A stretch of 64,000 nucleotides of DNA. Source: an uncultured delta proteobacterium (GTDB lineage Bacteria; Myxococcota_A; UBA9160; JAFDET01). Both the position numbers and the translations under genes were made by a program. The DNA lies in the NCBI GenBank assembly GCA_947259215.1, contig CAMYLJ010000001.1:148505-212504 (forward strand), given 5' to 3'. A model generated the notes under the pieces. It was given only the letters and a program-made list of their open reading frames with translations. It searched no databases and was not told the DNA's origin. Numbering within the stretch: position 1 is the stretch's first letter; each line of letters opens with the position of its first letter. This document shows positions 12,225 to 58,244 of the stretch, one piece after another.

Positions 12225-12241
12225 AGGGGTCCTCCGCCCTG

Positions 12242-12273
12242 CCCGGCGCGCGTGCGTGGTGGCGCGCGCCGGG
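12242..12273 (+). terminator. GC-rich hairpin after ftsZ
   Basis: CCCGGCGCGCG (12242-12252) and CGCGCGCCGGG (12263-12273) form a perfect 11 bp stem with a 10-base loop, 18 bases after the ftsZ stop. No T-run follows, so it is not a canonical intrinsic terminator, but the place at the end of the dcw cluster suits a transcription end. Its right arm runs into the inverted-repeat element that begins at 12269. Confidence 0.5.
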
Positions 12274-12384
12274 ACGTCGGAGGGTTCCTCCGGCGAGGTC
12301 CTCGTGCGCTGCGGCCTCACGCGTCACGAACAGAGTCCGTCAGCGCGCTGCGGATTTCGCCTGCGGGAGCCTCCGACGTCCCGG
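12269..12384. repeat. Inverted-repeat-bounded element, copy A
   Basis: Perfect 15 bp inverted repeats CCGGGACGTCGGAGG (12269-12283) and its complement (12370-12384) bound a 116 bp segment between ftsZ and the crotonase gene. The interior contains TCCGTCAGCGCGCT (12336-12349), which is found identically in copies B (15173-15186, opposite strand) and C (32635-32648). The inner sequence from the 12283 region to 12370 aligns along most of its length with the reverse complement of copy B. No coding potential is seen. It may be a non-autonomous mobile element or a structured RNA; the right end lies 24 bases before the crotonase start. Confidence 0.75.
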
Positions 12385-12408
12385 CGGTCGGCTGCTAGGA
12401 TGCGCGCC

Positions 12409-13221
12409 ATGACGGGCTCGTTGGTGCGTGTGGAGCGGGACGGGGACATTGCGACTCTCACGTTCTGCGATCCGGAGCGGCTGAACGCGATGACCCGGCC
12501 CATGGGCGAGGCGTTCGCCGAGAAGGTCGGGGAGCTCTGCCGGGAGGATGGGCTGCGCGCCGTGGTGCTCACCGGGGAGGGGCGCGCGTTCTCGGCCGGG
12601 GGCGATCTGGAGTTCATCCGTGCCATGGCGGAGGCCGGGGTGGCCGATCCCGGTGGGCCGACGCGGCGGAGCAACCGGGACGCGATGCGGGCCTTCTACG
12701 GGCTCTTCCTGGCGGTGCGGGACCTCCCCTGCCCGAGCGTGGCGGCCATCAACGGGCCCGCCATCGGGGCCGGCCTGTGCGTGGCCCTGGCCTGTGACCT
12801 GCGGGTGGTGGCGCGGGAAGCCAAGCTGGGGCTCAACTTCAGCCGCCTGGGCATCCATCCCGGCATGGGCGCCACCTGGACCTTGCCGCGCCTGGTCGGC
12901 CCGGCCCACGCCGCCGATCTGCTGCTGACCGGCCGCATCCTCGACGGGCAGGAGGCCGAGCGGATCGGGCTCGTCAATCGCTGCGTGGAGCGGGAGGCCG
13001 TGCTGGAGCACGCGACCGCGCTCGCGCGCGAGGTGGCGGCCGCCGCCCCGGCGGCGGTGCGAGGCACGCGGGAGGCCCTGGCCCGCTCGAGCGGCGCCAG
13101 CCTCGACGACCAGCTGGCGTTCGAGGCCGCGCGTCAGGCCGAGTGCTACGAGACGCACGATCTCCTGGAGGGTCTCTCGGCGGCACGGGAAAAGCGGGCG
13201 CCGCATTTCCGGGACGAGTGA
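12409..13221 (+). CDS. Crotonase (enoyl-CoA hydratase/isomerase) family protein
   Basis: The 270-residue product is a crotonase-fold enzyme acting on acyl-CoA thioesters. The oxyanion-hole segments are visible: AFSAGGDLEF near residue 63 and NGPAIGAGLCVALACD near 116. The two glutamates used by classical enoyl-CoA hydratase are not at their usual places; the matching segment reads FSRLGIHPGMGATW and the second reads HAADLLLTG. The exact reaction (hydratase, isomerase, other) is therefore unassigned. The ATG at 12409 follows AGGA by eight bases; an ATG at 12400 would add three residues. It lies near two acyl-CoA dehydrogenases, which fits fatty-acid or alicyclic acid catabolism. Confidence 0.88.
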   Translation: MTGSLVRVERDGDIATLTFCDPERLNAMTRPMGEAFAEKVGELCREDGLRAVVLTGEGRAFSAGGDLEFIRAMAEAGVADPGGPTRRSNRDAMRAFYGLFLAVRDLPCPSVAAINGPAIGAGLCVALACDLRVVAREAKLGLNFSRLGIHPGMGATWTLPRLVGPAHAADLLLTGRILDGQEAERIGLVNRCVEREAVLEHATALAREVAAAAPAAVRGTREALARSSGASLDDQLAFEAARQAECYETHDLLEGLSAAREKRAPHFRDE

Positions 13222-13936: not shown

Positions 13937-13978
13937 CGTGCGATTCCTCCGCCTGGGGTCTGGCCGCGGGACGGTAGC

Positions 13979-14070
13979 CATTTATCGTGACTTCGCTCGC
14001 CTGCGGCGAGCTGCGCGCGCGGCGACGACCACGAAGGCGGGACCAACCCTTCGGCGCCGGGCTTGCGGCC
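13979..14070 (-). repeat. Dispersed palindromic repeat R1
   Basis: Read on the minus strand, this copy starts GGCCGCAAGCCCGGCGCC and ends GCGAAGTCACGATAAATG. Near the end lies GCTCGCC-GCA-GGCGAGC (13995-14011), a perfect 7 bp stem; in copy R7 the same stem has the loop GAA. It sits between the start of ndk and the end of the quinone reductase gene. No gene is visible in it. Confidence 0.75.
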
Positions 14071-14123
14071 ACAGACGCACGAGTCACGACCCACTCGTCA
14101 GGGCAAGTGCTGCTGGCTGCTCC

Positions 14124-15104: not shown

Positions 15105-15132
15105 GCGCGAACGTTACCACCTGAAGCCGGGT

Positions 15133-15258
15133 CGGACGCCGGAGGGGGGAGGTGCCCGCAGGCGTAATCCGCAGCGCGCTGACGGACTCCGGGTGTGGCG
15201 AGTGAGATCGCAGCGCGCGAGGACATCGCCGGAGGGCATCTCCCCCCTCCGGCGTCCG
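15133..15258. repeat. Inverted-repeat-bounded element, copy B
   Basis: CGGACGCCGGAGGGGGGA (15133-15150) and its exact complement (15241-15258) form an 18 bp perfect inverted repeat around a 126 bp unit. It is in the opposite orientation to copy A and shares with it AGCGCGCTGACGGA (15173-15186), the CCCGCAGGCG segment and the GAGGACATCGCCGGAGG region. It fills most of the gap between the quinone reductase start and the acyl-CoA dehydrogenase stop, so no separate promoter is seen there. Confidence 0.8.
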
Positions 15259-15273
15259 GCCCGCGCGACCCCC

Positions 15274-20023: not shown

Positions 20024-20470
20024 TGGTCGGAGGTGGACGGAGGATCGCCGGCGGGCAAACACCGCTCGCGGGAGGAAAGTCCGGGCTCCGTTGGGCAGGG
20101 AGGTCGTTAACGACGACCCGGGGCGACCCGAGGGAAAGTGCCGCAGAAACCACACCGCCGATGGCCGTTGATCCCGGGAGGCCCTTGTGAGAGGGGGCGC
20201 CCGGAGGAGGCACAGGCAAGGGTGAAATCGTGGGGTAAGAGCCCACGCGTGACAGCCGGGTGACCGGCGGCGGGGCAAACCCCTCCCGGAGCAAGCTCGA
20301 ATAGGCGCACCGTCGAGGACGGCCCGTCCGATGCGCTCTTCGGAGCGTCGGTGCGCGGGTGAGAGTGCTCGAGCGCCGTGGCAACACGTCGCCTAGACGA
20401 ATGATCCTCGCCGGCCGCGGGGCAACCCGCGGTCGGGACAGAACCCGGCTTACAGTCCACCTCCGGCCAT
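20024..20470 (+). ncRNA. rnpB: RNase P RNA, class A
   Basis: This is the catalytic RNA that matures tRNA 5' ends. The P1 stem is formed by GGAGGTGGAC (20029-20038) with GTCCACCTCC (20455-20464), extended by weaker pairs on both sides. The conserved core blocks are present in order: GAGGAAAGTCCGGGCTCC near 20072, the GGGTGAAA region near 20220, GGTAAGAGCCCAC, CCGGAGCAAG near 20287, GAATAGG, and the 3' GACAGAACCCGGCTTA near 20437. Ends are estimated from P1 pairing and may be off by a few bases. Reading frames on the opposite strand here are spurious. Confidence 0.97.
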
Positions 20471-20488: not shown

Positions 20489-20545
20489 CTTCGCTCGCCT
20501 GCGGCTTGCTGCGCGCACGGGCCCGGAGGGCCCGCGCTTGCGGCC
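20489..20545 (-). repeat. Dispersed palindromic repeat R2
   Basis: Read on the minus strand: GGCCGCAAGCGCGGGCCC, TCC loop, GGGCCCGTGCGCGCAGC, then GCAGGCGAGCGAAGG. It matches copy R6 inside dnaE2 most closely. The terminal GTCACGATAAATG block is missing. Lying directly after rnpB, its GC-rich hairpin could help stop transcription. Confidence 0.7.
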
Positions 20546-25580: not shown

Positions 25581-25611
25581 ACTTCGCTCGCCTCCTGCGG
25601 CTCGCTGCGCG
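25581..25611 (-). repeat. Partial palindromic repeat R3
   Basis: On the minus strand this reads GCGCAGCGAGCCGCAGGAGGCGAGCGAAGT, the right-hand part of the R family without the left hairpin. It lies in the 49 bp gap between the convergent SLC13 and RND genes. Confidence 0.5.
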
Positions 25612-25622
25612 TCGGCGACCTC

Positions 25623-28600
25623 CTAGCGGCCGCCCAGCACCGGCTGTGCGCGGCGCCGCGACCAGGCGGCGCGGGCCCGGGCCGGCCCGGCCTTCAGATC
25701 CTCCAGCGCCAGGTAGAGCGACGGCACCACGAAGAGCGTCAGCATGCTGGCCGTCATCAGGCCGAACACGATGGCGGTGGCGAAGGGCGCGAAGACCGGT
25801 GACTTGCCGCCGATTCCGAGCGACATGGGCGCCAGGCCGGCCACGGTGGTCAGGGTGGTGAGCATGATCGGGCGGAAGCGCTTGCGGCTGGCGATCTGGA
25901 CCGCCTCCAGCGACGGCGTCCCCCGCCGCCGCTCCTGGTTCACGAAGTCGATCAGCACCAGGGAGTCGTTCACGACGATCCCCGCCAGCCCGACCAGCGC
26001 GTACAGCACGTACATCGACATGGTGTAGCCGCCGAGCAGGGTGTTCAGCAGCCACATCCCGATCACGACGCCGATGTACGCCAGCCCCACCACGCTCATC
26101 ACCACCAGGGGCTGGGCGTAGGAGCGGAACTGGGCGGCCAGGATCGCGTAGATGGCCAGCAGCGCGACCAGGAAGGCGCGCCCCATGGCGTCGAAGGTCT
26201 CGTCGGTCACCTGGAACTCGCCGCCGAAGATGAGATTGACGCCGGGGTAGCGCGCGCTGGCGTCGGCGAAGCGCGCGCGCATCTCCTCGTTGGCGGACAC
26301 CGAGGTGGCCTGCTCGCCGTCCACCTTGGCGTAGACCACCACCGCGCGCTTGGCGTCGTAGTGATAGAGGCGCTGGAAGCCGCGGACCAGCTCGATCTCG
26401 GCCACGTCGGCGAGCTTCACCAGGTAGCCGCCGGGGGTGCGGAGCTCCAGGTCCAGCAGATCGGCCACGCTGCGCCGCTGGTCGTCCCGGAGCATCACGC
26501 GGATGTCCACGTCCTCGTCCGACTTCGGGTCCTTGAAGGTCGAGGGCACCAGGCCGTCACTCGCCGCCCGCAACGCGCCGCCCACCTCGGCGAAGGTCAG
26601 CCCGTGGATCGAGGCGCGGTGCTCGTCCAACCGGACCCGCAGCTCCCGCGGCCCCAGCGGCACGTTGTCCTCGACGTCCGATACGCCCGGGATCGTGCGC
26701 AGCTCGGCCTTCAGCTCCTCGGCCACGCGCTTGGCGAGGTCGTAGTCCTCGGCCTGCACCCGGATCGCCACCGGGGAGCCGATGGGCGGGCCGTTGCGCG
26801 GCGGTGCCACGAACAGGTTCTCGATGCCCGTGGGATCCGCCTCGGCGGTCTCGAAGACCGACGCCCGCACCAGCTCGAGCACGCGACCCGGGTCGGCCAC
26901 GTTCTGGCGCGTATTGGGAAACTCGACGAAGAAGAGCGCGTAGTTCGGCGCGAAGACCGGGATCATGTCGGCCGTCATGCCCTGGCCGGTGAAGCCCAGG
27001 TAGTCCGTCAGCTCGCCGGAGATCGCCTCCACGCCAGCCTGGAGGCGCTGCGCCACCTCGTCGGTCTGCTCCAGGCCGAAGTCGGGCGGCGTCTCCACCG
27101 TCACGAACAGGTTGTTGAAGTCGCTCGGGAAGAGGTCCACGGGCACGCGTTGGGAGAGCGCCACGGACACGAGCAGGGCCGCGAGGCACACGGCGAGGAA
27201 GGGATAGCGGGACGCCAGCACGGCCGCCTGAGCGCGACCGTAGCGCTCCCGGGCGCGGTCCATGAAGCCGTCCACCGAGGCCCGCAGGCGGTAGCTGACG
27301 CTCCAGAGACCCGTGCTGCCCGCGTGCTCCTCGGCGGCGGCGGACGCCTTGCGCCGGGTACCCCAGTCCAGGTAGTGGGCCGGCAGGATCACCAGCGCCT
27401 CGAGCAGCGAGCCCGCCAGGCACAGGATCACCGTCTTCGGCAGGATCGACATGAACTGGCCCGACGTGCCCTGGATCAGCAGCATGGGCAGGAAGGCGGC
27501 CATGGTGGTGACGATGGCCGCCGTCACCGGCCACATCACCTCCTCGGTGCCTTCGATCACCGCCTGGCGCAGCGGCTTCCCCTCCTCGATGTGGCGGTAG
27601 ATGTTCTCGAGGATGATGATCGCGTCGTCCACCAGCATCCCCGACACCATCACGAAGCCCACCAGGGACAGCGAGTTGATCGTGACGTTGAAGACCGGGA
27701 ACAGGATCACCGCGGTCAGGAACGAGAACGGGACGCCGATGATCGCCAGCAGCGCGTTGCGGAAGCCCACCGTCAGCCACAGGATGAAGATCACGAAGAC
27801 GATGCCGAGCGCCAGGTTGGTGCGCATGATCGAGAGCCGCGCGGCCACGTAGTCCGACTGGTCCCAGACGGCCTTGATCCCGATCCCTGGCGGCACGAAG
27901 GGGCTCTCCTTCTCGACGAAGGCCTTCACCGAGTCCACCAGCTCGATGACGTCGGCGTCCTTCTCCTTGGAGACCCCGAGGACGATCACGGGCTTGCCGT
28001 TCAGGCGCCCGCGGATGCGCCGCTTCTCGAAGTCGGGCCGGATCTCCGCCAGCTCGCCCAGGGTGACGTGGGTCCCGGCCGGATCCTTGCGCACCACCGT
28101 GGCAGCCAGGGATTCCGGGGTCGCGAACTGGCCCGTGCCGCGAACCGTGATCTCCTGGTCCGAGGCGTTGGTGAACGAGCCGCCCGGCACGTTCTGGTTG
28201 TTCTGCGCCACCACCCGGCTGATCTCGGGCAGGGTCAGGTCGTACTGGAGTGCCCGGTCCTTGTCGACGAAGACGCGCAGCTCGCGGTCGCGCTCGCCGC
28301 GCATGATCACCTTGCGCACGCCGGGAACCTGTTCCAGGCGCTTCTCCATCCCGCGCGCCAGCTCACGCAGGGTGAACTCCCCGACTCCGCCCTCATCGGT
28401 GAGCGCCACCATCACCATCGGGTTCACCTCGGAGACGGTGAGCTCGGTCAGGATCGGCTCGTCGGCGTCGTCGGGGAGGTCGCTGACCCGGTCGATGGCC
28501 GCACGCAGGTCGTTGAGGGCGCCCTCGTACGCCAGATCCGACAGGCTCTCGTCCCACTCGACGTCGACCTCGGAGAGACCCGCGCCGGAGAAGCTCGTCA

Positions 28601-47797: not shown

Positions 47798-47804
47798 CGA
47801 CGCC

Positions 47805-47894
47805 CAGCAAGCCCGGCGCCTCCACGCGCGAACGGGCCCGAACGCGCGACGGCGGGCGCGCAGCGAGCCAACGGCGAGCGGAGTCACGATAAAT
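47805..47894 (+). repeat. Dispersed palindromic repeat R4
   Basis: The copy runs from CAGCAAGCCCGGCGCC to GGCGAGCGGAGTCACGATAAATG. It continues for ten more bases (AGAGCCTCCG) identical to those after copy R5. It lies between the convergent ABM and S8 peptidase genes, not within a gene. Confidence 0.75.
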
Positions 47895-47936
47895 GAGAGC
47901 CTCCGCCCCCGCGCGGGGCACCGGAGACCCGACGCC

Positions 47937-53641: not shown

Positions 53642-53803
53642 GCGGCCCCGCAAGCCCGGCGCCCCGGAGCTCGAACTAGCCCTGAGGCAGAACGCCGGGC
53701 GCGCAGCGGTCTCAGCGACAGCGCCAAGCAAGCTGGGAAGCCGGCCACCGGGTCGGCTTCCGATCCGTTCTCTTCCCGCAGGCGAGCGGAGTCACGATAA
53801 ATG
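53642..53803 (+). repeat. Dispersed palindromic repeat R5 (long form)
   Basis: This copy has the first stem CCCGGCG (53655-53661) with CGCCGGG (53693-53699), the middle block AGCGGTCTCAGCGACAGCG, a second stem GGAAGCCG/CGGCTTCC, and the terminal GGCGAGCGGAGTCACGATAA. It shares the long middle block with R8. It lies between dinB and the receiver gene. Confidence 0.8.
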
Positions 53804-53850
53804 AGAGCCTCCGCGCCACGCGAACCCGCGGAGTCCGCGGCCCGCGGCGT

Positions 53851-54290: not shown

Positions 54291-57200
54291 ATGGCGTCCC
54301 CCCCGGCGCGGCCGGCTCCCCTGCGGAGCCGGACCCCTGCTGTGTCCGCGCGCGCCCTGGCGCGCGACTACGTGGAGCTGCGCTGTCGCAGCGCCTTCTC
54401 CTTCCTGTCCGGCGCCTCCAATCCGGAGGATCTGGTCGAGCGCGCCGCCGAGCTCGACCACCCGGCCCTGGCGCTGGCCGACCGCGACGGCCTCTACGGC
54501 GCGCCCCGCTTCTACCAGGCGGCGCGCACAGCCGGCCTGCACCCGATCGTCGGCGCCGAGCTCCAGATCGAAGACGGCCCGGAGCTGCTGCTGCTGGTCC
54601 CCTCCCCGAGCGCCTACCGAAGCCTCTCCCGCCTCTGCACGCTGGCACACCACCACAACCCCAAACGCGCGAAGTGGAACAACTCCGCGCAACGTCAACC
54701 CACCCGAGCCTCCGCGCCCCGCACGAACCACCCGAGCCAAGAAGCCCCGCAAGCGCGGGCCCTCCGGGCCCGGGCGCGCAGCGAGGCGCAGCCGAGCGGA
54801 GTCACGATAAGTTCTGCCCCGCACATCACCTGGTCCCAAGCGGAAGAACACGGAACCGAGCTTCTGGCCTTGGTCCGCGGCGACGGCGCGTTGACCCCCG
54901 CCGGGCTCGATCACGCCCGCGTGATCTTCGGCGATCGCCTGTGGCTCGACGTCTCCCGACATCTCGAACGCCGCGGCGAGATGGGTGCGCGCTGGGCGGT
55001 GGCCCTGGCGGAGGCGCGCGGCGTGCCGGTGGTGGCCACGGGCGACGTGCGCTTCGCCCGCCGCGAGGGCCGGCGGCTCCTCGACGCCTTTGCGTGCCTG
55101 CGCGAGAAGCGGACCCTCGACCACGCGGGCCGCACACTGCTCCCCAACGGCGAGCGCGGGCTCCGGGCGCGGGAGGAGATGGCCGCGCGCTTCGCCGACC
55201 GGCCGGCGTGGATCCGCGCCTCGCGCACCATCGCCGAGCGCTGCGCCTTCAGCCTGGACGACCTGGGCTACCGCTTCCCGGACTTCCCGACGCCCGCCGG
55301 CGAGACCCAGCAGGGCCTGCTGCGCCGGCTCACCTTCGAGGGAGCGCAGCGCCGCTACGGGACTCCCCTGCCCGCGCGCGCGCGCGCGCAGATCGAGCAC
55401 GAGCTGGCGGTGATCGGGAAGCTCACGCTGGCGGGCTACTTCCTGATCGTCTGGGACGTGGCCCGCTACGCTCGCGACGAGGGCATCCTGTGCCAGGGCC
55501 GCGGCTCCGCCGCCAACAGCGCCGTCTGCTACGCGCTCGGCATCACTGCCGTGGATCCGGTGGGAATGGAGCTGCTCTTCGAGCGCTTCCTGTCCGAGGA
55601 GCGCGGCGAGTGGCCGGACATCGACCTCGACCTGCCCTCCGGCGATCCGCGCGAGCAGGTGATCCAGTACGTCTACGAACGCTACGGACCGCACGGTGCG
55701 GGGATGACCGCCACGGTCATCAGCTACCGCACGCGCTCGGCCGTGCGCGAGATGGGCAAGGTCCTCGGTCTGTCCGAGGACCAGGTGGACAAGCTCGCCA
55801 AGCTCCTGGCGAGCTGGGAGTACGACGACCAGCGCGATGCCCTGGCCCCGATCCTGCGCAAGGCGGGCGTGGACCCGGAGGCGCCGCGCATCCGCACGCT
55901 TCTCGGGCTGGTGCGGCAGGTGCGCGGGCTGCCGCGCCACCTGGGCCAGCACACCGGGGGACTCGTCATCGCCGCCGGCCGGCTCGACGAGGTGGTGCCC
56001 CTGGAGCCCGCCCGCATGCCCGACCGCACCATCGTGCAGTGGGACAAGGACGACTGCGCCGACCTCGGGATCATCAAGATCGACCTGCTCGGCCTGGGCA
56101 TGCTCCAGGCCCTGGAGGAGACGATCCCGTTGATCCGCAAGCACGAGGGGGTGAACGTGGACCTCGCCCACCTGCCCCCCGACGACCCCGCCACCTACGC
56201 CATGATCCGGCGCGCCGACACGGTGGGGGTGTTCCAGATCGAGAGCCGCGCCCAGATGGCGACCCTGCCGCGCCTGAAGCCCCGCTGCTTCTACGACCTG
56301 GTGGTGGAGATCGCGATCATCCGCCCGGGCCCGATCGTCGGGCAGATGGTGCACCCGTACCTGAACCGCCGCGCCGGGCGCGAGCCGGTGAGCTACCCGC
56401 ACCCCTCCCTCGAGCCGGTGCTCGCGCGCACCCTCGGCGTGCCGCTCTTCCAGGAGCAGCTCCTGCGCATCGCCATGATCGCGGCGGGCTTCAGCGGCGG
56501 CGAGGCCGAAGAGCTGCGCCGGGCCATGGGCTTCAAGCGCTCCGTGGAGCGCATGGATCGCATCGAGGCGCGGCTGCGCGCGGGCATGCGCGCGAACGGA
56601 TTGTCACCCCAGGCCGAGGAGGACATCGTGCGCGGCATCCAGTCGTTCGCCCTCTACGGCTTCCCGGAGTCCCACTCGGCCAGCTTCGCGCTGATCGCCT
56701 ACGCCTCGGCCTACCTGAAGGCGCACCACCCGGAAGCCTTCCTGGTGGGCCTCCTCAACGCCCAGCCCATGGGCTTCTACAGTCCCGCCACCCTGGTACA
56801 GGACGCCCAGCACCACCACGTCGAAGTCCGACCCATCGACGTCACGCACTCGCAGTGGCAATGCACCCTCGAATCCCTTGCCGCACCCGAAGCCAACACG
56901 CCTCCGGACCCCGAGGCCGCAAGCCCGGCGCCCCGGAGCCCGAACGAGCCACGGGGTAGGACGCCGGGCGCGCAGCTCGCCGAAGGCGAGCGGAGTCACG
57001 ATAAATGCCGTCCCGCCGTCCGCCTCGGTTTACGCTACGTCGGAGGCCTTACCGCCGAAACCGGCACCCGCATCGCCAGCGAGCGCGCCCGCACCCCCTT
57101 CCGAGACCTCGCAGACTTCGCGAAGCGCACGGCCCCCAAGAGCGACGAGCTGGCCGCGCTCGCGGAGCTGGGGGCGCTCGGGGAAATCGATCCGCAAGCA

Positions 57201-57722
57201 CGGGAACGGCGGGCGGCGTTGTGGCAGGTGGCGGCGCTGGAGCGCGACCCGAAGTCGCTCTTCGCCGGCGTGCGCCCCGTGCGCTCGCCCTCGCCACTCG
57301 CCGAGATGACGGCCCAGGAGGAGACCCTGACCGACTACCGGGTGGCGGGGCTCACCACGGGGCCGCACATGCTGAGCCACCTGCGCGCGGGGCTGCGGGC
57401 GCGCGGGCTGCTCTCGGCGGCGGAGGTGCGCGCGGCGCCGGACGGGAGCTTCGTGCGCACGGCGGGCTTCGTGATCGTGCGCCAGCGTCCCGGCTCCGCC
57501 CGCGGCTTCTGCTTCCTCACCCTGGAGGACGAGACCGGCACCAGCAACGCCGTCCTGACTCCTCGCCAGTTCCAGCGCTTCCGCGCACCGCTCCACACGG
57601 CCGCCATCGTCGAGCTCGCCGGCCCGGTGCAGAACGTGGACGACGTGGTCCACGTCCGCGTCCGCGAGCTCGCGCCGCTGGTCCCCAAGACGGGCCTGCC
57701 GCGCAGCCACGACTACCGCTGA
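54291..57722 (+). CDS. dnaE2: Error-prone DNA polymerase DnaE2 (ImuC) with two repeat insertions
   Basis: This C-family polymerase performs mutagenic translesion synthesis with ImuAB. It has a PHP domain (start YVELRCRSAFSFLSGAS), the palm with WPDIDLDLPSG near residues 441-451 holding catalytic aspartates, GRGSAANSAVCYALGIT, EIAIIRPGPI and the GFPESHSASFALIAY fingers, and a C-terminal OB fold. At 1143 residues it is longer than usual (about 1050-1090). The excess lies at two linkers: about residues 122-180 in PHP and 866-910 after WQCTLES, where repeats R6 and R7 are read in frame. The inserted peptides are Arg/Pro/Ala-rich and probably unstructured. No motif is broken, so it may be active. 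Confidence 0.93.
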   Translation: MASPPARPAPLRSRTPAVSARALARDYVELRCRSAFSFLSGASNPEDLVERAAELDHPALALADRDGLYGAPRFYQAARTAGLHPIVGAELQIEDGPELLLLVPSPSAYRSLSRLCTLAHHHNPKRAKWNNSAQRQPTRASAPRTNHPSQEAPQARALRARARSEAQPSGVTISSAPHITWSQAEEHGTELLALVRGDGALTPAGLDHARVIFGDRLWLDVSRHLERRGEMGARWAVALAEARGVPVVATGDVRFARREGRRLLDAFACLREKRTLDHAGRTLLPNGERGLRAREEMAARFADRPAWIRASRTIAERCAFSLDDLGYRFPDFPTPAGETQQGLLRRLTFEGAQRRYGTPLPARARAQIEHELAVIGKLTLAGYFLIVWDVARYARDEGILCQGRGSAANSAVCYALGITAVDPVGMELLFERFLSEERGEWPDIDLDLPSGDPREQVIQYVYERYGPHGAGMTATVISYRTRSAVREMGKVLGLSEDQVDKLAKLLASWEYDDQRDALAPILRKAGVDPEAPRIRTLLGLVRQVRGLPRHLGQHTGGLVIAAGRLDEVVPLEPARMPDRTIVQWDKDDCADLGIIKIDLLGLGMLQALEETIPLIRKHEGVNVDLAHLPPDDPATYAMIRRADTVGVFQIESRAQMATLPRLKPRCFYDLVVEIAIIRPGPIVGQMVHPYLNRRAGREPVSYPHPSLEPVLARTLGVPLFQEQLLRIAMIAAGFSGGEAEELRRAMGFKRSVERMDRIEARLRAGMRANGLSPQAEEDIVRGIQSFALYGFPESHSASFALIAYASAYLKAHHPEAFLVGLLNAQPMGFYSPATLVQDAQHHHVEVRPIDVTHSQWQCTLESLAAPEANTPPDPEAASPAPRSPNEPRGRTPGAQLAEGERSHDKCRPAVRLGLRYVGGLTAETGTRIASERARTPFRDLADFAKRTAPKSDELAALAELGALGEIDPQARERRAALWQVAALERDPKSLFAGVRPVRSPSPLAEMTAQEETLTDYRVAGLTTGPHMLSHLRAGLRARGLLSAAEVRAAPDGSFVRTAGFVIVRQRPGSARGFCFLTLEDETGTSNAVLTPRQFQRFRAPLHTAAIVELAGPVQNVDDVVHVRVRELAPLVPKTGLPRSHDYR
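54744..54811 (+). repeat. Palindromic repeat R6 inside dnaE2
   Basis: The copy reads GCCCCGCAAGCGCGGGCCC, loop TCC, GGGCCCGGGCGCGCAGC, then GCCGAGCGGAGTCACGATAA. In dnaE2 its last part is translated PSGVTIS. It matches R2 after rnpB most closely. It is preceded by GAGCCTCCGCGCCCC (54709-54723), the same bases that follow R5. Confidence 0.85.
56915..57007 (+). repeat. Palindromic repeat R7 inside dnaE2
   Basis: The copy has stem CCCGGCG (56924-56930) with CGCCGGG (56962-56968), then GCTCGCC-GAA-GGCGAGC (56975-56991) and the end GGAGTCACGATAAATG. It is translated GERSHDK at its end, a different frame from R6. In the third frame the same bases would give a TAA stop. Confidence 0.85.
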
Positions 57723-57770: not shown

Positions 57771-57926
57771 GCGGCCCCGCAAGCCCTGCGCCCCGAATCC
57801 CGAACGTGCCCCGAGGCACGACGCAGGGCGCGCAGCGGTCTCAGCGACAGCGCCAAGCAAGCTGGGAAGCCGGCTTCAGCCGGCTTCCGATCCTTGCTCT
57901 TCGCGCAGCCGAGCGGAGTCACGCTA
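57771..57926 (+). repeat. Dispersed palindromic repeat R8 (long form)
   Basis: The stem is CCCTGCG (57784-57790) with CGCAGGG (57822-57828): compared with R5 and R7 both partners of one pair changed, G-C to T-A. The second stem is GGAAGCCGGCT-TC-AGCCGGCTTCC. The end reads GAGCGGAGTCACGCTAG. It lies after dnaE2 and supplies the stop codon of the convergent small membrane gene (57924-57926). Confidence 0.85.
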
Positions 57927-58244
57927 GTTGGTGGCGCTCTGCGACGCCGAGGTCCGATCCACGAACTGGCCGATGGTGCGATATGAGCTCACCAACAGCC
58001 CCAGCGAGAACATGAAGGCGAGGAAGCCGATGGGAACCAGCAGCGCCCAGCGCTCCTCGTGCCAGAACCGGAGGCAGTGTCCGAGGAACCAGGACGACAG
58101 GGCCAGGTAGAGCGCGGTCGCACCGACCCAACCCACCTTGTCGCGGGTGGGGCCGGGCTTCAGGACCACCGCCAGGATCCAGCCAGGGACGAGGATCGCC
58201 GCTCCCACCAACGCGACCAGGTTGAACGGGCTCAAGTCGCTCAT
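57924..58244 (-). CDS. Small three-span membrane protein, unknown function
   Basis: The 106-residue product has three hydrophobic segments (about residues 8-27, 39-57 and 66-86) and short polar ends. No family is recognised. Its ATG overlaps the transketolase stop by four bases on the same strand, so it is the distal gene of a transketolase operon. Its stop codon TAG lies within the end of repeat R8, so the repeat insertion may have set the present C-terminus. Confidence 0.65.
   Translation of the reverse strand: MSDLSPFNLVALVGAAILVPGWILAVVLKPGPTRDKVGWVGATALYLALSSWFLGHCLRFWHEERWALLVPIGFLAFMFSLGLLVSSYRTIGQFVDRTSASQSATN

Follow-up and report, generated by a model that had tools for sequence, protein, structure and literature searches.

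In-frame copies of a dispersed hairpin repeat in two loops of DnaE2, an error-prone DNA polymerase, in an uncultured member of the Myxococcota

Results

Two dnaE2 loops contain copies of a dispersed repeat

The dnaE2 gene of an uncultured delta proteobacterium (genome G000) contains two segments, R6 and R7, that belong to a family of short hairpin repeats. The most probable reading, to which we assign a probability of about 0.86, is that both are copies of a non-autonomous dispersed hairpin DNA repeat that is tolerated in frame in two DnaE2 loops as disordered extensions. The repeat is structured, dispersed and amplified by lineage, and it is nearly missing from genes except where it lies in frame in loops or linkers. 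The analysis started from a window of 64,000 nucleotides on contig C1 of this genome, and unless a contig is named all positions refer to the window.

The gene (54291-57722, forward strand) is open throughout and encodes 1143 amino acids. Its product was identified as DnaE2 by a profile search (NF004225; score 1251 bits, cut-off 939) and has the PHP, NTPase, finger, HhH and OB domains, with OB falling just below the Pfam cut-off. The catalytic aspartates D443 and D445 (PDIDLD) and D598 (KIDLLGL) are invariant in 34 homologues and are spared by the inserts.

The first insert, about 48 amino acids long (residues ~126-175; 54666-54815, forward strand), lies in a PHP-domain loop between NPK and SAPHITW; its boundaries were taken from the protein alignment, with an uncertainty of a few codons. 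Within it R6 (54742-54821, forward strand; G000:C1:203246-203325; covariance model 78.8 bits, E 9e-22) has the order CCGCAAGC-hairpin 1-GGGCGCGCAGC-hairpin 2-GAGTCACGATAA and is read in frame as ..ARSEAQPSGVTIS... The stretch directly 5' of R6, from GAGCCTCCGCGCCCCGC to GAGCC (54703-54741, forward strand), also matched DNA beside other genomic copies when compared by BLAST with the own genome. Given that these matches start at query positions 54-57 (window ~54703-54706; for example C21:65045-65141 and C4:50908-51006) and thus 5' of R6, the first insert is a longer composite in which a neighbouring stretch of repeat came along. The second insert, of about 43 amino acids (residues ~863-905; 56877-57005, forward strand), was placed by alignment and AlphaFold in a beta-hairpin turn between strands 859-861 and 909-911. 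It contains R7 (56912-57015, forward strand; C1:205416-205519; 77.4 bits, E 3e-21), which has a long hairpin 1 and is read in frame as ..GAQLAEGERSHDK...

A preliminary description made from the window alone had assigned R6 and R7 to one dispersed family, and the covariance model agreed, with edges that lie within some 10 bases of those given there; the insert lengths of roughly 55 and 45 residues given earlier were close to the aligned ones. Its reading of the frames was also correct. In R6 (..SEAQPSGVTIS..) the first base of the motif GAGCGGAGTCACGATAA falls on codon position 3, and in R7 (..AEGERSHDK..) it falls on position 1; the remaining third frame stops at TAA.

Both inserts are predicted to be disordered and to lie in loops separating intact domains. 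In the AlphaFold model, which was built with 34 sequences (pTM 0.66), pLDDT was below 50 at residues 126-152, 161-174 and 865-903, which correspond to the two inserts, and the flanks were ordered.

Up to 49 DnaE2 sequences from the same order were aligned, and the view of both segments as insertions was borne out. At site 1 (NPK^..^TW) no relative covering the site had a comparable insert; these relatives read NAPK-GEARASW and otherwise showed just short, unrelated length differences. At site 2 (CTLE^..^AVRLGLR) most relatives had a short loop, and this was also true of the sister genus G001. The tail GAGCGNAGTCACGATAA occurred 18 times in the own genome and was found in none of 60 relatives. 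Given that the TCACGATAA-tailed subfamily, to which R6 and R7 belong, is thus private to this genome among 61, the two insertions are recent on its branch.

The polymerase has a third variable site near query residue 469, where the DnaE2s of family f7 (G016, G022 and G009; loci L264, L265 and L266) carry a different insert after FxRYG. The one in G016 is a tandem repeat of the GNIGAKPS type near the catalytic PDIDLD region.

Sequence and structure of the repeat family

Across the order the core of the repeat is CCGCAAGC-[hairpin 1]-GCGCGCAGC-[hairpin 2: GAGCC GAA GGCGAG]-CGAAGTC, followed by a lineage-specific tail, here TCACGATAA. Hairpin 1 is a GC stem-loop whose length varies among the aligned copies. 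Hairpin 2 occurs as GAGCC GAA GGCGAG, GAGGC GAA GCCGAG or CTCGCC GAA GGCGAG and is followed by GRAGTCACGATAAATG, and in some copies an extra stem beyond GCAGCGGTCTCAGCGACAGCG produces a long variant. Examples of the long variant with GCAGCGGTCTCAGCGACAGCG are the window copies at 53648-53811 and 57775-57938 and locus L118; in dnaX (L169) a copy of this kind is translated in frame. This variant is common to the taxonomic family of the window and to G060 of another family and is therefore probably old.

The core GCSAGCGGAGTCACGMTAA was found six times in the window with at most three mismatches, where 0.09 were expected from shuffled sequences, and 30 times genome-wide with at most two mismatches, compared with none for a reversed control. 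Over 22 aligned copies, 97.8% of the cells in the two hairpins were paired and 32 double-sided changes were seen; the covariation score was 0.248 compared with 0.066 for shuffled alignments, and 0/500 shuffles reached the observed score. The element, with its two covarying hairpins, spans about 60-105 nt. G-U pairs are almost missing from the hairpins, which suits a DNA palindrome no less well than an RNA. At the copies no Rfam family matched, HEARO/IscB-type guide RNA (RF02033) included, either at the gathering cut-off or at E up to 1, and the only Rfam matches in the window were RNase P and one tRNA. MITEs are recognised by terminal inverted repeats together with a target-site duplication, and on the first of these two features the consensus shows two internal hairpins instead.

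Location of copies in the genome

The covariance model, built from 22 copies, gave 87 matches in the own genome, 78 of them at E <1e-5, and we estimate about 80 copies. Placement of the 85 classified copies, for which genes were called with a codon-usage model trained on dnaE2 and on the transketolase-like and DinB-like ORFs of the window, left 78 intergenic, five in genes and two at gene ends. With a coding fraction of 0.89 in the window, chance alone would place about 76 of the 85 inside genes (binomial ~4e-66). Spacers between convergent genes held 38/74 intergenic copies, whereas 5/27 of the window spacers measuring 60 nt or more are convergent. The genome-wide search, which the preliminary description had proposed, thus bore out the dispersed family, with most copies between genes and a few inside them, and in the window itself the other copies were intergenic, as had been claimed, according to the gene-model classification.

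Two of these window copies, both of the long variant and on the forward strand, flank dnaE2: one lies 5' of the gene (53648-53811; C1:202152-202315) and has GGTCTCAGCGACAGCG and a third stem, and the other lies immediately 3' (57775-57938; C1:206279-206442). Further intergenic copies detected by the covariance model were at 47800-47903 (forward strand; C1:196304-196407) and 13971-14073 (reverse strand; C1:162475-162577). A partial intergenic copy (20489-20541, reverse strand; C1:168993-169045) lies 21 nt 3' of the RNase P RNA gene (20029-20468), to which it is antisense. A degenerate sequence at 25581-25638 (reverse strand) is a weak candidate (covariance model, E 0.0065).

The copies also cluster regionally. 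There were 15 on C1, the contig of the window, where 3.5 were expected, and nine on C4 where 2.8 were expected, and clustering was seen on C30 as well; the 335-kb contig C8 had a single copy.

Copies inside other genes

R6 and R7 make up two of the five in-gene copies of the genome. The other three are in dnaX (read ..EGERSHAM..), in a gene for an MltD-like LysM lytic transglycosylase (read ..GAQLAEGERSHDK.., in the same frame as R7) and, as a weak antisense copy, in pabB/trpE. In relatives 12/90 placed copies were in genes, at seven loci. The genes concerned included those for enoyl-CoA hydratase (G048), Ap4A phosphorylase (two), an AAA ATPase (two) and dnaE2; in an acyl-CoA ligase the copy lies between the ATP-grasp and CoA-binding domains, in CinA three tandem 48-nt copies lie between the MoCF and KH domains, and a molybdopterin oxidoreductase-like protein has one antisense copy. 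An in-frame copy in hemF of G002 was found separately from the seven loci. Curated domains flank or span the element in the MltD-like protein, dnaX, pabB/trpE, hemF, cinA, enoyl-CoA hydratase, Ap4A phosphorylase and acyl-CoA ligase, and across the in-gene cases in relatives all three sense frames are used.

In-gene tandem arrays of two or three copies that keep the frame and give repeated peptides such as AASRRRAESDGKAGGR were seen at L236 (CinA, 2400-2582), L225 and L202. The copies at aroQ and at a gene for a thiamine enzyme (L131 and L158) were rejected as insertions as they are located at gene ends.

Spread among relatives and recurrence at loop 2 of DnaE2

The repeat core was present in 39/61 sampled genomes (own genome included), mostly from the same order, and in a handful of less closely related genomes of the phylum; the named records with the repeat are mostly Myxococcota and 'Deltaproteobacteria' MAGs. 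In G033, G048 and G031, which belong to three other families, the same repeat occupies loop 2 (site 2) of DnaE2 in frame, and the frames differ among the orthologues, as illustrated by the peptides LAEGERSSG and PAEGERSPE in G033 and AASPRRAESN and SEAQPSEVG in G048. The four carriers, own genome included, are scattered on the DnaE2 tree and four changes are needed to account for them. Among the fetched loci the tail of the G033 insert, GTTCAGRAAGCCCTGC, was otherwise found at only one further locus, also in G033.

Unrelated palindromes fill the same loop in two other genomes. In G002, from the own family of the window, loop 2 is made of a 132-nt self-complementary repeat that is unrelated to the R6/R7 family and homologous (E 4e-11) to two intergenic palindromes of the window at 12236-12417 and 15128-15263. 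The latter are near-perfect palindromes of ~135-180 nt with fold energies of -134 and -117 kcal/mol, and both belong to a second family of dispersed repeats. These long palindromes share with the R6/R7 repeat a dispersed distribution, self-complementarity and an in-frame occurrence at loop 2 of DnaE2, but their sequence is unrelated to it and each forms one palindrome of ~130-180 nt. Loop 2 of G035 is filled by a palindrome of 288 nt that has relatives in G027.

Loop 2 of DnaE2 is thus a recurrent landing site for palindromic repeats, in six genomes and with at least two unrelated families. It was repeat-made in 6/11 repeat-rich genomes (four with the R6/R7 family and two with other palindromes) and in 0/38 others (Fisher's Exact Test, p = 3e-5), where repeat-rich means at least ~30 copies and the count was taken from draft genomes after the pattern had been noticed.

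Candidate movers

Neither of the two enzyme families considered as movers was retained, as the presence of the Y1/RAYT (IS200) transposase (PF01797) and of reverse transcriptase (PF00078) does not track the copy number of the repeat. PF01797 was absent from five relatives with 37-68 copies, a negative that is weakened by the incompleteness of the genomes, and at none of the three own PF01797 loci did the repeat lie beside the gene. Given that no autonomous partner was found in this way, mobility itself is something that we infer. PF01797 genes are strongly expanded in G029, G015 and G006 (30, 11 and 11 matches, respectively), in which the repeat is rare or absent, and these expansions may be drivers of other repeat families.

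Discussion

The events behind this pattern would be as follows. The repeat multiplies inside each genome, probably by the copying of a hairpin element through some cellular or transposon enzyme, and the surviving copies are almost always intergenic, above all between convergent genes. Two copies entered loops of dnaE2 in frame and are read in whichever frame stayed open, so that the inserts would represent selfish or neutral DNA that the protein carries as disordered loop extensions. The insert-bearing DnaE2 is probably made and working, and the recurrence at loop 2 may mean that this part of the protein accepts insertions unusually readily, in a polymerase that would be dispensable and stress-induced. 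The preliminary description had argued that the protein tolerates the element rather than needing one peptide, and this view is upheld by the varying frames among orthologues, the unrelated palindromes in two genomes and the predicted disorder.

Tolerance alone may however be incomplete, given that two insertions in one gene of ~5000 together with the repeated occupation of loop 2 exceed what blind tolerance would give (Poisson ~1e-7 to 5e-4, with in-gene copy numbers assumed). A minority possibility is that repeats truly prefer loop 2 as a target, or that selection favours insertions there for the change they make to the polymerase, for example towards a mutator. It is similarly conceivable, at about the same low odds, that the beta-hairpin loop after WxCTLE is a genuine evolutionary hotspot at which unrelated palindromes are fixed repeatedly and by preference within this order, either because a change in the loop is neutral to beneficial (tuning of mutation rate) or because the gene is targeted. 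The excess of repeat-made loops in repeat-rich genomes and the share of dnaE2 among the own in-gene copies agree with a preferred target or selection, as does the recurrence of REPs in dnaE2, uvrA, recB and polA of unrelated bacteria (PMC3733652). The inserts have, on the other hand, no peptide, frame or length in common, leave the catalytic residues untouched and are predicted to be disordered; much the same pattern would arise if the loop were very permissive and the gene dispensable, and the statistics are partly post hoc.

A single ancient insertion in an ancestral loop 2, followed by many losses and by updating through gene conversion in a few carriers, is improbable. On the DnaE2 tree the four carriers, each from a different family, do branch close to the root of their respective families, as such a history would have it, but parsimony requires four gains or at least six losses, the tails are genome-specific (TCACGATAA only in G000 and GTTCAGRAAGCCCTGC only in G033 among the fetched loci), and in the sister genus within the own family loop 2 lacks an insert in G001 and holds another palindrome in G002. 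Still less probable is removal of the element before or during translation, as a small self-splicing RNA or by ribosome bypass, leaving a protein free of inserts: a compact, covarying two-hairpin element inside conserved genes would suit this, but Rfam ribozyme and intron families give no match, no intron-type conserved core is seen, and all in-gene cases encountered have lengths that preserve the frame, although the search was biased towards them. That the inserts form a domain or binding peptide specific to DnaE2 and resemble the repeat by chance is already contradicted, for although they are open and in frame in the own genome and the LAEGERS frame recurs in R7, the MltD-like protein and the DnaE2 of G033, the same DNA occurs ~80 times and mostly between genes, R6 and R7 are read in different frames, and most DnaE2s lack the insert, which is predicted to be disordered.

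We return to a tolerated dispersed repeat, for which known systems offer close comparisons. REPs are 20-40 bp single stem-loops tagged by GTAG or CGTC that are mostly intergenic, between convergent genes or genes in the same direction, and Di Nocera et al. (2013) described REPs of the GTAG/CGTC superfamilies in frame inside genes, explicitly including the error-prone DnaE2 (PMC3733652). Many of the REP-bearing genes serve replication and repair, and repair genes were argued to be over-represented, with speculation on altered function; recB of two Xanthomonas species had different REPs at about the same site (PMC3733652). The R6/R7 repeat is likewise palindromic, high in copy number, intergenic in 78/85 cases and preferentially found in convergent spacers. 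It differs from REPs in that the consensus has no GTAG or CGTC tag on either strand, in its two covarying hairpins over ~60-105 nt and in having no linked RAYT. It occurs in an order of the Myxococcota, the string 'myxococc' is absent from the text of PMC3733652, and a literature search on REPs in myxobacteria found nothing relevant.

The second comparison is with the palindromic elements of Rickettsia (RPE; Ogata et al. 2000). These are dispersed, form in-frame fusions with many conserved proteins at positions exposed to solvent, and have also been reported within the RNase P RNA gene (PMC2229807). Proteins with Rickettsia elements include DNA polymerase III alpha (DnaE), and possible hotspots are taken by different RPE groups (PMC2229807; PMC3767692, which treats RPE-4/6/7). 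The R6/R7 repeat is similar in being found in frame in conserved protein genes at exposed positions, and the parallel drawn earlier with these elements holds as an analogy. RPEs, however, are specific to Rickettsia, measure 100-150 bp, have long stem-loops and terminal inverted repeats, and usually share their site between orthologues, unlike the R6/R7 repeat, which is mainly intergenic and whose DnaE2 copies belong to genome-specific subfamilies. Given the different phylum and a comparison made by description, the repeat can be said to work like an RPE, not to be one. Wolbachia palindromic elements and Methanocaldococcus coding palindromes, as they appear in the reference list of PMC2229807, are palindromic repeats with coding potential, and by that description the R6/R7 repeat is alike in its coding potential.

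The preliminary description knew of no such case for DnaE2, which has to be corrected: both REPs in DnaE2 (PMC3733652) and Rickettsia elements in the replicative DnaE (PMC3767692) have been published, and in-frame insertion in DnaE2 is therefore not unprecedented. What is new is the repeat family, its wide occurrence in the order and the repeated filling of one DnaE2 loop by unrelated repeats.

Most known protein-fused repeats that are read in frame come from Rickettsia and Wolbachia, with scattered examples among REPs, and the R6/R7 family adds dozens of copies in many uncultured Myxococcota. Gene callers and domain models applied to these genomes will come across 'extra' peptides that are translated repeats. 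The filling of one polymerase loop in six genomes makes it testable whether genes for repair and mutagenesis, above all dnaE2, tolerate such elements, are targeted by them or are selected for carrying them.
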